NCBI RefSeq assembly: GCF_032190635.1
Contig: NZ_JAVLAS010000001.1
Coordinates: forward strand, 930,001-994,000
DNA length: 64,000 nt
Reading direction: 5' to 3'
DNA from: Levilactobacillus zymae
GTDB taxonomy: Bacteria; Bacillota; Bacilli; Lactobacillales; Lactobacillaceae
Below the pieces are notes generated by a model. The model was given only the letters and a program-made list of their open reading frames with translations, did not search any database and had not been told where the DNA came from. This document shows positions 8,033 through 60,040 of the stretch, one piece after another; the first letter of the stretch is position 1, and each line of letters opens with the position of its first letter. Made by a program: the position numbers and the translations under genes.

Positions 8033-8935
8033 ATGCACCTGACTCAACGCACAGTTTCTCATTATCTCGGCGGATTTGCGCTGGTTCTGATCATGGTCGC
8101 CAGTGCCACCTGGCTCCACGACAGCGAAATTATCTTACCCGAGGTGGGGGCCCTGACTGCGGGAACCTGGATTTACCAAAACCCGGGATGGATTCACCAA
8201 CCGTTTAAAATTTTTCTCGCGCCTTCTGGGACCGCTTTGATTGGTTTTTTAGCCAACCAGTTGGCCTGGCCCTACGCCGCTAAAGTGCTGGTCGGCTTAT
8301 TAGTGATGCTGGGATGGTTACGGGTGGTTCATTCAACCCTAGCCCCATCATTTGCGACGGGACTGTTACCACTCATTGTGAACGCCACCCACTGGTCGTT
8401 CATGCTGGCGATTTGTGTCCTGACGGGGTGCTTGATGCTGGGCACCTATTGTCAACGACAATACCCCAAGGCCCTGGCGCCCCGACCCACTACGGTCACC
8501 CAGATGAGCTGGTTTGCGGGCTTGGTGACGGTGTGGATCGGCACCGTAGCGTTGGTGGGGTTGCCGCAAATGGCGGCGGTCCCGCCGGTACTGGTCGTGT
8601 TCTTCGAAGTGCTGCAACGGCCCACGTACCCGGGGGCCCTGGCAATGCGTCACTGGCTCGCGTTAGTCGGGGCGGCCAGCCTGGGGGTGGGGATTCACCT
8701 GGTCATCGCGTCATGGCTACTGAGTACGGTCATCGCGTTGCCCCTGGTCTACGGGCTATTGGCGGGATTGCGCTTAAAGCTTCCCGCCGCGTACGCCTTT
8801 CCGTTGTTAGCCCTGGTATTACCCGCAAACATGTTCCGCATGCTGCCCGTAACGGCGGTATTGGCAGCGGGATTTTTCCTGGGAGCGGTCGTGATCTTAA
8901 AACGTCAACCGGTCACGGTGATGGAAAACGATTAG
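8033..8935 (+). CDS. Polytopic membrane protein of unknown function
   Basis: 300 aa, I do not recognise the family with confidence. About eight to nine hydrophobic segments are seen. The N-terminal part (ILPEVGALTAGTWIY, then FLAPSGTALIGFLANQL) vaguely recalls HPP-type membrane proteins, but this is weak. No extracytoplasmic domain or catalytic motif is visible. ATG 8033 is preceded by AAGGGA. Transcribed alone, divergent from pepC, and ended by a strong bidirectional hairpin shared with rpiA. Confidence 0.7.
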   Translation: MHLTQRTVSHYLGGFALVLIMVASATWLHDSEIILPEVGALTAGTWIYQNPGWIHQPFKIFLAPSGTALIGFLANQLAWPYAAKVLVGLLVMLGWLRVVHSTLAPSFATGLLPLIVNATHWSFMLAICVLTGCLMLGTYCQRQYPKALAPRPTTVTQMSWFAGLVTVWIGTVALVGLPQMAAVPPVLVVFFEVLQRPTYPGALAMRHWLALVGAASLGVGIHLVIASWLLSTVIALPLVYGLLAGLRLKLPAAYAFPLLALVLPANMFRMLPVTAVLAAGFFLGAVVILKRQPVTVMEND

Positions 8936-8940
8936 TCGGC

Positions 8941-8981
8941 AAAACGACCATTATTCCTGAATTTGGAATAATGGTCGTTTT
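8941..8981. terminator. Bidirectional terminator
   Basis: Perfect 17-bp stem (8941-8957 with 8965-8981; AAAACGACCATTATTCC and its complement) and 7-nt loop, with four A/T pairs at the base on each side. It separates the membrane protein gene from convergent rpiA. Confidence 0.85.
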
Positions 8982-9055
8982 GAGGTTAAGTGGAACTAAC
9001 CGCTGTGGGGTACCCGTTACGGCACCATGGTGAAAAATTGATAAATTTAACGATA

Positions 9056-9742
9056 TTAATCGCGCGCGTTTAAGACTTCCGGTCCGTCTTGACGACCCAC
9101 GATGACCGTGTTGACCGTGTCTAAGAACAACCCGTGTTCCACGACCCCGACGATGCCATTTAAGGTGTTGGCCAGTTCGTGGGGGTGATCAATGCGCCCC
9201 AAGTGCAGGTCGATGATGTAGTTCTTGGAGTCGGTGAGGACGTGTTGACCATTGTCTTGCATCCGGAAAGTGGGGTGCAAGCCCATCTTGTCTAGCTTTT
9301 CCAAAACGTGCGTAGAGCCGAAAGGAATGACTTCTAGGGGTAACGGGAACTTACCCAAGTGGTGGACTAACTTGCTTTCGTCCACAATCCACATGTTCTT
9401 CCGGGAGTTAATCGCCACAATCTTTTCCCATAAGTGAGCAGCGCCGCCACCCTTGATGCCTTGGAAATTGTCGTCAATTTCGTCGGCACCGTCGATGGTC
9501 AAGTCCAGGTGATCCACCTCATCTAATTGCTTGATGGTGATGCCCAGGGATTCGGCTTGCTTAGCGGAACGGTCGGAAGTGGCCACGCCAATAATGTGTA
9601 ACCCTTCCTTGGCAACCCGTTCGCCCAAAGCGTCAATCATATACTTGACGGTCGAACCGGTCCCAATTCCTAAAATCATGCCATCTTCCACGTACTTGAC
9701 GGCTTCTTGGCCTACGAGGGCCTTTAATGCGTTTTGATCCAT
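9056..9742 (-). CDS. rpiA: Ribose-5-phosphate isomerase A
   Basis: 228 aa; interconverts ribose 5-phosphate and ribulose 5-phosphate in the cytoplasm (pentose phosphate or phosphoketolase pathway). Family motifs: [13 protein letters not shown] (phosphate loop), [10 protein letters not shown] with the active-site acids, [14 protein letters not shown], and [20 protein letters not shown]. Full usual length. Second gene of a two-gene operon: the small acetyltransferase-like gene ends 7 bp upstream. Ends near the shared bidirectional hairpin at 8941. Confidence 0.96.
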
Positions 9743-21895: not shown

Positions 21896-22050
21896 ATTGA
21901 AGTTGTGAATAGATCTACCTAAGACTCAGGTGACGGATTCGTCTTAAACTAGCCTGCCGAGGAAGAAGTTTATTATTGAACTTTTAACTCTCTATGTCTG
22001 GGTGGCATGGGGATTTTTTTATCCCACCAAACTACTCTGGGAGGTGAACA
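21896..22050 (+). ncRNA. L10 leader (autoregulatory mRNA element bound by L10-L7/L12)
   Basis: The leader between the promoter and rplJ carries the conserved blocks of the Firmicute L10 leader: the kink-turn-like region around AGACTCAGGTG (about 21922), CTAGCCTGCCGAGGAAG (about 21951), and a closing terminator-like hairpin GGTGGCATGGGGA...TTTTTTTATCCCACC (22000-22027). Binding of excess L10 would favour termination before rplJ. Identified by recognition of motif and context, not by covariance search. Confidence 0.8.
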
Positions 22051-35868: not shown

Positions 35869-35970
35869 TGCCGTTAAGGCCTTGAAGCAAGGGTGGGCTC
35901 ACGAATCGTGTCAGGTCCGGAAGGAAGCAGCACTAAGTCTGTTTCACTTTGTGCTTCAAGTTATTGAGCC
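35869..35970 (+). ncRNA. ffs: Signal recognition particle RNA, small (4.5S-like) type
   Basis: Contains the invariant SRP domain IV core GTCAGGTCCGGAAGGAAGCAGC (here 35919-35940, cited in part) with the GGAA tetraloop and asymmetric loop, closed by the long helix CTTGAAGCA (35881-35889) with TGCTTCAAG (35952-35960). It binds Ffh and targets ribosomes to the membrane. The 5' end is set from the promoter, the 3' end is approximate; the terminator follows at 35978. No Alu domain of the long Bacillus type is seen. Confidence 0.92.
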
Positions 35971-35977
35971 ATTAAGC

Positions 35978-36010
35978 ACGTCCGTTTCCGAGAGGGAATG
36001 GACGTTTTTT
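35978..36010 (+). terminator. SRP RNA terminator
   Basis: ACGTCCGTTTCC pairs with GGGAATGGACGT across a short loop; six T follow (36005-36010). Confidence 0.9.
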
Positions 36011-36014
36011 ATAT

Positions 36015-36300
36015 TATAAGAGTGCGTCCAGGGGCGGTCAGCGGGTGAGCATTAACGCCATTGTGGTGATTAGCCCGGGCCTGGCTAATTGCCAAAATGG
36101 GGTTAAGCGGAACCCGTTGCCCCTGGAAAGCACGTTTTGGCTATGGTAGCGGAGAAGCTGAGGTTAATTGCCACCCTAGTGGCCTTAAGCGGAACCGGCT
36201 GCCCGTCAGGAACACGTTTCGGCTACGGTAATGGATAAGTCGGGGATAGCCGCCAACGCGAGCAGGATTAAGCGGAGTCGATTTTAGCCCCAGTCGACCA
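36015..36300. repeat. Structured intergenic repeat, locus 1 (three modules)
   Basis: Begins right after the SRP RNA terminator. The 112-bp core (36022-36133) has 8 differences by my count from 59683-59794. It folds back on itself: GTGC/GCAC and CCAGGGGC/GCCCCTGG at the ends, CATTGTGG/CCAAAATG inside, ATTAGCC (36069-36075)/GGCTAAT (36083-36089) at the tip. Two more degenerate modules follow; TTAAGCGG recurs at 36103, 36185 and 36268 (period 82-83). No reading frame or transposase. I do not recognise the family. The remaining 36301-36539 holds the dnaX promoter and nothing else I recognise. Confidence 0.85.
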
Positions 36301-59642: not shown

Positions 59643-59674
59643 AGTCGTAGTCTGAAAGGATTACGGCTTTTTTT
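59643..59674 (+). terminator. rex terminator
   Basis: AGTCGTA (59643-59649) pairs with TACGGCT (59662-59668) with one G-U pair; seven T follow. Confidence 0.85.
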
Positions 59675-59676
59675 GT

Positions 59677-60040
59677 ATAAGAGTGCGTCCAGGGGCGGTC
59701 AGCGGGCGAGCATTAACGTCATTTCGGTGATTAGCCTGGGCTTGGCTAATTGCCGAAATGGGGTTAAGCGGAACCCGTTGCCCCTGGTAAGCACGTTTCA
59801 GCGGCCGCAGATGGCGATAATTTTAAGGCAAAAATCCAGCACCTGTTAATGACAACGCACTTGGCTAATCGGGGTTAAGCGGAACCGGCTGCCCGTCAGT
59901 CGCACGTTTCAGCAGCCGCAGATGGCGATAGTTTCAGGACAAAAATCCAGCACCTGTTAATGGCAACGCACTTGGCTAATCGGGTTTAAGCGGAACCCGT
60001 TGCCCCTGGTAAGCACGTTTCGGCGATGGCGCAGTGTAAG
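59677..60040. repeat. Structured intergenic repeat, locus 2 (three modules, 111-bp period)
   Basis: Begins directly after the rex terminator at the same TATAAGAGTGCG junction as locus 1. The 112-bp core is 59683-59794, with the same fold and CATTTCGG (59720-59727)/CCGAAATG (59753-59760) in place of CATTGTGG/CCAAAATG. It is followed by tandem modules of exactly 111 bp: GCACGTTTC begins at 59791, 59902 and 60013, and TTAAGCGG at 59764, 59875 and 59986. No reading frame. Beyond 60040, to 60147, nothing else is recognised. Confidence 0.85.

Follow-up and report, generated by a model that had tools for sequence, protein, structure and literature searches.

Two intergenic stretches in the window, the whole 64,000-nt segment of the Levilactobacillus zymae genome analysed here, are interpreted as copies, with truncated tandem modules behind them, of a high-copy family of hairpins of about 125 nt that occurs across the Lactobacillales, has spread in a MITE-like manner and has a role as RNA at the 3′ ends of transcripts. 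Taken as a whole, this statement has in our judgement an even chance of being right, and its parts differ in strength. We are confident of the family and of a constraint on its sense strand, a MITE-like mode of spread is somewhat favored, and for an RNA role at the 3′ end the chance falls a little short of even. The element is real and belongs to a large family of a known kind, the structured MITE-like intergenic repeats; what is unusual about it is the order-wide spread, the strand-specific fold, the anchoring at stop codons and the apparent swapping of stems.

In the mechanism that we propose, a non-autonomous MITE-like repeat would spread and settle beside stop codons and terminator hairpins. 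Once settled, it would become part of the transcribed 3′ UTR, and as folded RNA it might act at the transcript end by protecting it from exonucleases, by providing a cut site for RNase III or by aiding termination, the latter in both directions between convergent genes. Exchange from copy to copy would swap whole stems at some sites, with the pairing preserved.

Copies in the window and in the Lactobacillaceae

The first full-length copy is located at 36017..36142 (G000:C1:966017-966142) and the second at 59678..59803 (G000:C1:989678-989803), both on the + strand, as are all features of the window described below unless another strand is given. They scored 133.6 and 139.5 bits, respectively, with R1, a covariance model built from 19 oriented and aligned BLAST hits (alignment A1), and 116.5 and 120.3 bits with the family-wide model R2. 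Copy 1 folds into a single imperfect hairpin of 42 pairs, with AGAGUG...GUUU ends, a C-GGUC-AG bulge and a core in which GAGC-A-UUAACG faces GGGUUAAGCGGA. As noted in the initial annotation, the 112-nt cores are nearly identical, with differences at 8 of 112 positions between 36022-36133 and 59683-59794 (93.5% identity over 123 aligned bases), and one pair is changed on both sides, T36064-A36094 in copy 1 vs. C59725-G59755 in copy 2. The next pair, which had been overlooked, is broken in copy 1 (G36063 vs. A36095) and intact in copy 2 (T59724-A59756).

Two degenerate modules of the 3′ half follow copy 1 in tandem (36143..36300; direct repeat with a step of 82), and the spacing of 82-83 nt that had been described for them was recovered with TTAAGCGG at 36103, 36185 and 36268 (steps of 82 and 83). 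Behind copy 2, two further 3′-half modules (59804..60024; repeats D1 and D2) are arranged in steps of 111 nt, with TTAAGCGG at 59764, 59875 and 59986. Both full-length copies do begin just past a terminator-like hairpin and T-run, with the shared junction TATAAGAGTGCG at 36015-36026 and 59676-59687. The first of these hairpins (35978..36010) stands behind a small SRP RNA (35879..35965; Rfam RF00169, 57.8 bits) and ends about 6 nt before copy 1; the second (59643..59674) precedes copy 2, and judging by their shape both would function as terminators. The neighboring genes are, as far as we recognize them from their sequences, presumably a tadA-like gene, dnaX, rex and groES.

A degenerate third copy, comprising the inner hairpin and the 3′ half, is found at 8898..9024 (R2 32.0 bits, E 6.2e-6; R1 37.7 bits in the genome search) and is apparently eroded at its 5′ end. 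It adjoins the stop codon of an open reading frame at 8033-8935 (+), and the next open reading frame at 9056-9742 (-) is convergent. The window also contains an ordinary ribosomal protein L10 leader (21900-22028; RF00557, 77 bits).

The initial annotation had proposed a dispersed element with a conserved fold and had named the alternative, a simple duplication of one intergenic stretch within the L. zymae genome, of which just two copies free of covariation would be the mark. The two window copies are indeed 93% identical, as expected from a duplication, but the genome contains about 30 clear copies, covariation is far above the controls (see below), and the spread is genus- and family-wide, so that simple duplication was rejected and retains next to no probability. 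BLAST of the region against the genome gave 23 matches at E 0.001 or better, and R1 gave 74 matches at E 0.01 or better (best E 1.9e-37), 28 of them above 90 bits. Only high R1 scores were trusted because some matches represent the opposite strand of the same palindrome; such antisense cross-hits score up to 45.8 bits in this genome and up to 57 bits elsewhere.

Among the 35 genomes of the genus, 34 had R1 matches, as compared with none of 23 genomes of other families. Within the genus, G021 has no copy and G015 has one weak match, whereas their close relatives have tens; since these two genomes manage with none or one weak match, the role of the element cannot be essential, and they provide natural element-free comparisons. 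In the Lactobacillaceae, matches at E 1e-5 were obtained in 172 of 378 genomes, which represent 21 of 40 genera, with at most nine candidates scored per genome, and 20 chosen genomes of 18 genera had 1 to 107 matches each at E 1e-8, antisense cross-hits included. A fixed-pattern search of named genomes returned 37 stretches, all titled Levilactobacillus except for two titled Lactobacillus sp.

Fold, covariation and the strand that is kept

Folding of the 19-copy alignment with RNAalifold yielded one hairpin of 42 pairs, 25 of which have changed on both sides. The same hairpin is retained in A5, an alignment of 84 rows (82 distinct) from 75 loci chosen to span genera, in which 96.2% of 3435 cells are paired, 40 of the 42 pairs show two-sided change, and the covariation score is 0.811, as compared with 0.182 for shuffled and at most 0.155 for slid controls. 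In A3 (115 rows, including nine antisense cross-hits that were dropped from the placement counts presented below), 96.3% of the cells are paired and the covariation score is 0.656 vs. 0.167. For the most part, conserved letters lie outside the pairs or close to internal loops, with variable stems between them. They comprise the GAGUG and GUUU ends, the C-GGUU-AG bulge and GAGC-A-UUAAC against GUUAAGCGGA. Within single genomes, the mean column entropy of the inner and outer stems was 1.27 and 0.69 in G098, 1.30 and 1.01 in G117, and 1.26 and 0.74 in G392, while in G182 the inner stem was hardly more variable than the outer (0.77 vs. 0.69).

It had been suggested from the one compensated pair that the structure, and not just the sequence, is kept. 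The family alignments bear out that a folded form is kept, and it is from them that the strong evidence comes, a single covarying pair between two copies being weak. Covariation alone is nevertheless a weaker proof than was thought, because whole stems appear to have been exchanged at a few orthologous sites. Among 22 orthologous pairs with full elements, the mean identity was 0.87 in the outer stems, 0.98 in the core and 0.89 in the inner stems. The identity fell below 0.7 for the inner stem in five pairs and for the outer stem in four, and the inner stems were at least 85% paired. Cleanly one-sided swaps, in which one stem is below 0.7 and the other at least 0.85, were seen for two inner stems and one outer stem. 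We read the low-identity stems as the result of exchange between copies, to judge from these sequence comparisons; similar inner sequences occur in other copies, among which an exact donor for the swapped inner stems was not found. Part of the covariation may thus come from exchange rather than from point compensation. Swapping of stems mimics compensatory change, which is a warning for covariation tests.

With covariation possibly stemming in part from exchanged stems, the argument for RNA rests on a test of the strand. If a palindrome is maintained as DNA alone, G-T mismatches should be no better tolerated than A-C mismatches. In the sense strand, the ratio of G-T to A-C was 27:12 in A1, 42:13 in A2, 124:19 in A4 and 141:22 in A5, counted without the columns whose commonest pair is a wobble. 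In A6, an alignment of sequences from outside the Lactobacillaceae, 52 G-T and 11 A-C mismatches were counted over all columns. A sign test per pair was significant for A5 (27 vs. 5, p 0.00011) and not for the 19 rows of A1 (14 vs. 5, p 0.064), which were gathered by BLAST and not by structure; all other alignments were both gathered and aligned by means of a structure model, which rewards G-U and may thereby inflate the wobble excess. The preponderance of G-T wobbles over A-C mismatches indicates that the folded sense strand is kept, and the kept form is probably, and most simply, RNA. The element thereby combines the two marks of a structured RNA, covariation beyond the controls and strand-specific tolerance of G-U, with the caveat of the exchanged stems.

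Placement at transcript 3′ ends and turnover between species

The placement was studied in 216 distinct copies with crude open reading frame calls (at least 80 amino acids), 16 of which lacked a neighbor on one side, leaving 200. The copies are strongly placed in the sense direction at transcript 3′ ends, at stop codons as well as behind SRP RNA and tRNA genes. A sense gene was located upstream of 159 of the 200 copies, with a distance to its stop codon of -12 to +45 nt in 116 of the 159 and of -3 to +12 nt in 75. Codirectional gaps contained 78 sense vs. 32 antisense copies (p 1.4e-5), convergent gaps 81 of the 200 and divergent gaps nine. Copies behind a sense gene left a median of 4% of the free gap on their upstream side (KS 2.7e-41); these p-values are optimistic because copies at orthologous sites are not independent. 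Two copies (L060, L096) begin 6-7 nt behind a tRNA-Arg gene. Among named records, a copy on a L. plantarum plasmid starts 21 nt behind aspT and a copy in E. faecalis overlaps with a stop codon; a copy on an E. faecium plasmid is located about 400 nt past the nearest annotated gene.

A comparison of related species showed that the presence of the element is patchy. In the gap between rex and groES, examined at 16 of 30 loci, it is present in G000, G005, G013 (another subtype) and G033 (seen in part) and absent from G004, G006, G021, G022 and G024, among others. The SRP RNA is present in 12 of the 16 loci listed and is followed by the element only in G000, G003 and G033 and not in the other nine, of which G030 is covered for 138 nt. 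The 2.2 kb upstream of dnaX in G005, G013 and G021 contained neither the SRP RNA nor an exact-like core motif, and the contig of G024 ends earlier. We further compared seventeen sites of G022 and G009 with G024, G032 and G007 (L340 and L341 in part), and most of the G009 sites read are also occupied in G032 and G007. Site L338 is empty in the latter two genomes, with flanks that match at 97.9% and 94%, and has a plain terminator instead; its left junction directly follows the stop codon and coincides with the base of the terminator in the empty relatives. Left junctions of the same kind were found at L334 and L329 (G022 vs. G024) and, in comparison with the more distant G024, at L059 and L348. 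Truncated orthologous copies were identified at L365, L379 and L390, and full-length copies in tandem at L126, L204 and L242. Neither a target duplication, at the few empty sites with their diverged right junctions, nor a mobilizing protein was seen; only the comparison of L334 with L357 points to a possible direct repeat in the flanks.

Junctions at the base of terminator hairpins in empty relatives, sense orientation at transcript ends, RNA-like wobbles and the 5′-truncated tandem modules would all suit an RNA-templated, reverse-transcribed mobile element that, in the manner of group IIC introns, inserts next to terminator hairpins. The truncations may however be ordinary deletions in a palindrome, and exchange between copies explains much. 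We consider such a mechanism very unlikely.

Long intergenic repeats of a different family, which measure several hundred bases and contain GGCTGAG/TAGCC-like palindromes, occur near the same gaps at L141, L142 and L172 (in G003, G033 and G030) and in other relatives, for example before dnaX and groES. At L376 and L377 (in G032 and G007), which correspond to the site of L333, the element has been invaded or displaced by yet another long repeat (CAACCAGCCAGAACCCCC...).

We also considered the possibility that the element takes the place of terminators. A home-made scan identified another terminator at 56 of 116 element-bearing and 68 of 153 element-free gene ends (p 0.54), and given these equal frequencies replacement was rejected as a rule; single sites (L329, L338, L059) do look like replacements. 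With a somewhat stricter scan, 72 of 215 copies vs. 35 of 430 random windows had a terminator-like structure in the sense direction 6-150 nt downstream, and 21 of 215 copies had one within 60 nt upstream. The hairpin of the element is not directly followed by the U-rich tract of an intrinsic terminator: the conserved letters at its 3′ end are GUUU followed by C or A, and this GUUU is too short for a canonical U-tract. The 5′ flank is A-rich, with A at position -1 in 113 of 132 copies, and would read CUCUUUU in the opposite direction, a sequence that might serve a convergent gene.

Many dispersed copies with a patchy presence in close relatives and, by crude lists of open reading frames, no coding capacity are what is expected of a MITE. 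The element could be a purely parasitic MITE-like DNA repeat of no use to the host, placed at 3′ ends because it does least harm there or because terminator hairpins are its preferred target, and folded for recognition by a transposase. The high copy number, the tandem copies and the element-free relatives fit such a parasite, and PMC3733652 classes EFAR (a MITE of Enterococci) with ERIC and others among the MITEs. On the other hand, the asymmetry of about 6 to 1 between G-T and A-C favors a folded sense strand, the sense bias of 78 vs. 32 in codirectional gaps comes with clustering at the stop codon and not across the whole gap, and no general terminal inverted repeat was seen. The unit is itself a palindrome; inverted-repeat matches further out, with a score of at least 11, were found for 33 of 209 copies vs. 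1 of 209 shuffled queries, some of them being neighboring copies of the element, so that a longer unit bounded by inverted repeats is indicated for a subset at most. We regard pure parasitism as a serious but less probable explanation. Even if the element is only a parasite, it is missing from Rfam or from repeat annotation and is a hazard when genomes of lactic acid bacteria are assembled and their terminators and small RNAs are called.

A strand-specific hairpin with a bias in orientation could also be moved, like REP sequences, as the single-stranded DNA substrate of a RAYT or of a Y1 transposase of the IS200/IS605 type, and of the 34 genomes examined in the genus 23 have Y1 transposases. 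Their distribution does not follow that of the element: G021 has a Y1 gene and no elements, while elements occur without a Y1 match in G002, G005, G012, G016, G029, G030 and G032. Dependence on such an enzyme was rejected on these grounds, although dependence in the past is still conceivable, and we give the explanation very little probability.

Should the RNA role at the 3′ end be real, one repeat family would rework dozens of transcript 3′ ends per genome in Lactobacillales from food, gut and clinical settings, and genes that have the element in one species and lack it in a close one would constitute a natural experiment. A more far-reaching hypothesis, which we think rather improbable, is that the hairpins form an order-wide, undescribed family of structured RNAs in 3′ UTRs. 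A shared trans-acting factor would read the movable module through its fixed unpaired letters (the C-GUUU/GGUU-AG bulge, the GAGC-A-UUAA / UUAAGCGGA core and the CGUUU end), and the module, settling at stop codons and with its stems reshuffled as cassettes, would control the transcript ends of tens to perhaps a hundred genes per genome.

Known kin and relatives outside the Lactobacillaceae

The claim that the element is undescribed and matches no known family stood in one part and fell in another. None of the 4227 Rfam families matched the window copy up to E 5; in 18 related loci there were nine matches up to E 1, none of them at the gathering score, and literature and motif-string searches turned up described kin and, among the papers listed, none on copies in the Lactobacillaceae. 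The element is nonetheless of a known kind, and is perhaps kin to EFAR and Efa-1 of Enterococcus faecalis, to which it was compared by description and under which it was not filed. What follows refers to those parts of the cited papers that were available. The element resembles EFAR and Efa-1 in being intergenic, structured, present in tens of copies and found in the Lactobacillales, and its Enterococcus-type members share a GAG ... C-GUUU-AG ... CUG ... GUUU skeleton. Efa-1, with 65 intergenic copies of 163 bp, is longer and consists of two adjacent stem-loops (PMC2267715), as opposed to the one hairpin here, and the Lactobacillaceae subtype has its own core (GAGCAUUAAC/GUUAAGCGGA), which is met only in part outside the family. 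Lac-1, the only L. johnsonii family in these parts of PMC2267715, is located within coding sequence, and the words Lactobacillus, Enterococcus and EFAR are absent from the main text of a review of MITEs (PMC10969869).

Of the repeats described for S. pneumoniae in PMC3049150, namely BOX, RUP and SPRITE, the first is likewise a modular intergenic repeat with a variable number of an inner module, folded and transcribed, and differs, as compared by description only, in its boxA-boxB-boxC build. SPRITE is a dispersed repeat with a terminator-like hairpin, but its 18-bp duplex and U-rich tract contrast with the 42 pairs and mere GUUU of the present element (PMC3049150). REP and BIME sequences with their RAYTs also occur as many palindromic copies in intergenic space, whereas the present element does not track the Y1 transposase. 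ERIC, about 127 bp in length, belongs to other bacteria and has another sequence, again compared by description only. Like the element studied here, it is a long imperfect intergenic palindrome, and its copies at 3′ ends can affect mRNA decay (PMC10969869); anchoring at stop codons is absent from the available description of ERIC. REP sequences are shorter, at 20-40 bp (PMC3733652). The similarity of some core letters to the GTTRRRY of integron attC sites suggested a site of that kind, an idea that was dropped because the ends of the element do not fit.

In the order, R2 matched 67 of 295 genomes and 29 of 74 genera, with 20 of these genomes in the Lactobacillaceae and 47 outside. The best outsiders among the matches listed, with scores of 81-103 bits, are from genus g67 (family f5) and have retained a large part of the core. 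The other outside relatives score 50-81 bits and retain the GAG ... C-GUUU-AG ... CUG ... GUUU skeleton, on which the rows below about 60 bits rest and among which there may be plain palindromes. In the 39 rows of A6, exact CG[GT]TTAG was present in 22 and terminal GTTT in 33, compared with 0 and 2 for shuffled letters. When fitted to the model, 92.2% of the cells pair and the covariation score is 0.929 vs. 0.194; the count of 40 two-sided pairs is uninformative because it was reached by 43 of 500 shuffles. The core letters of the Lactobacillaceae are rare outside the family, with the 5′ core motif in 9, the 3′ core in 8 and both in 2 of the 24 rows listed, allowing up to two mismatches in each.

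The subtype of the window had no match on phages or plasmids, while relatives of the Enterococcus and L. plantarum types are present on plasmid records, which in the BLAST search came from Enterococcus, Lactiplantibacillus, Lacticaseibacillus and Lactococcus. The G117 subtype is matched by one record of Latilactobacillus curvatus. Single records labeled Escherichia, Pseudomonas or Streptococcus also match by BLAST and may be mislabeled or reflect transfer; two of them, OL539428.1 (E. coli) and NZ_CP151545.1 (P. aeruginosa), contain an Enterococcus-type element at 77-80% identity and are possibly mislabeled Enterococcus plasmids.
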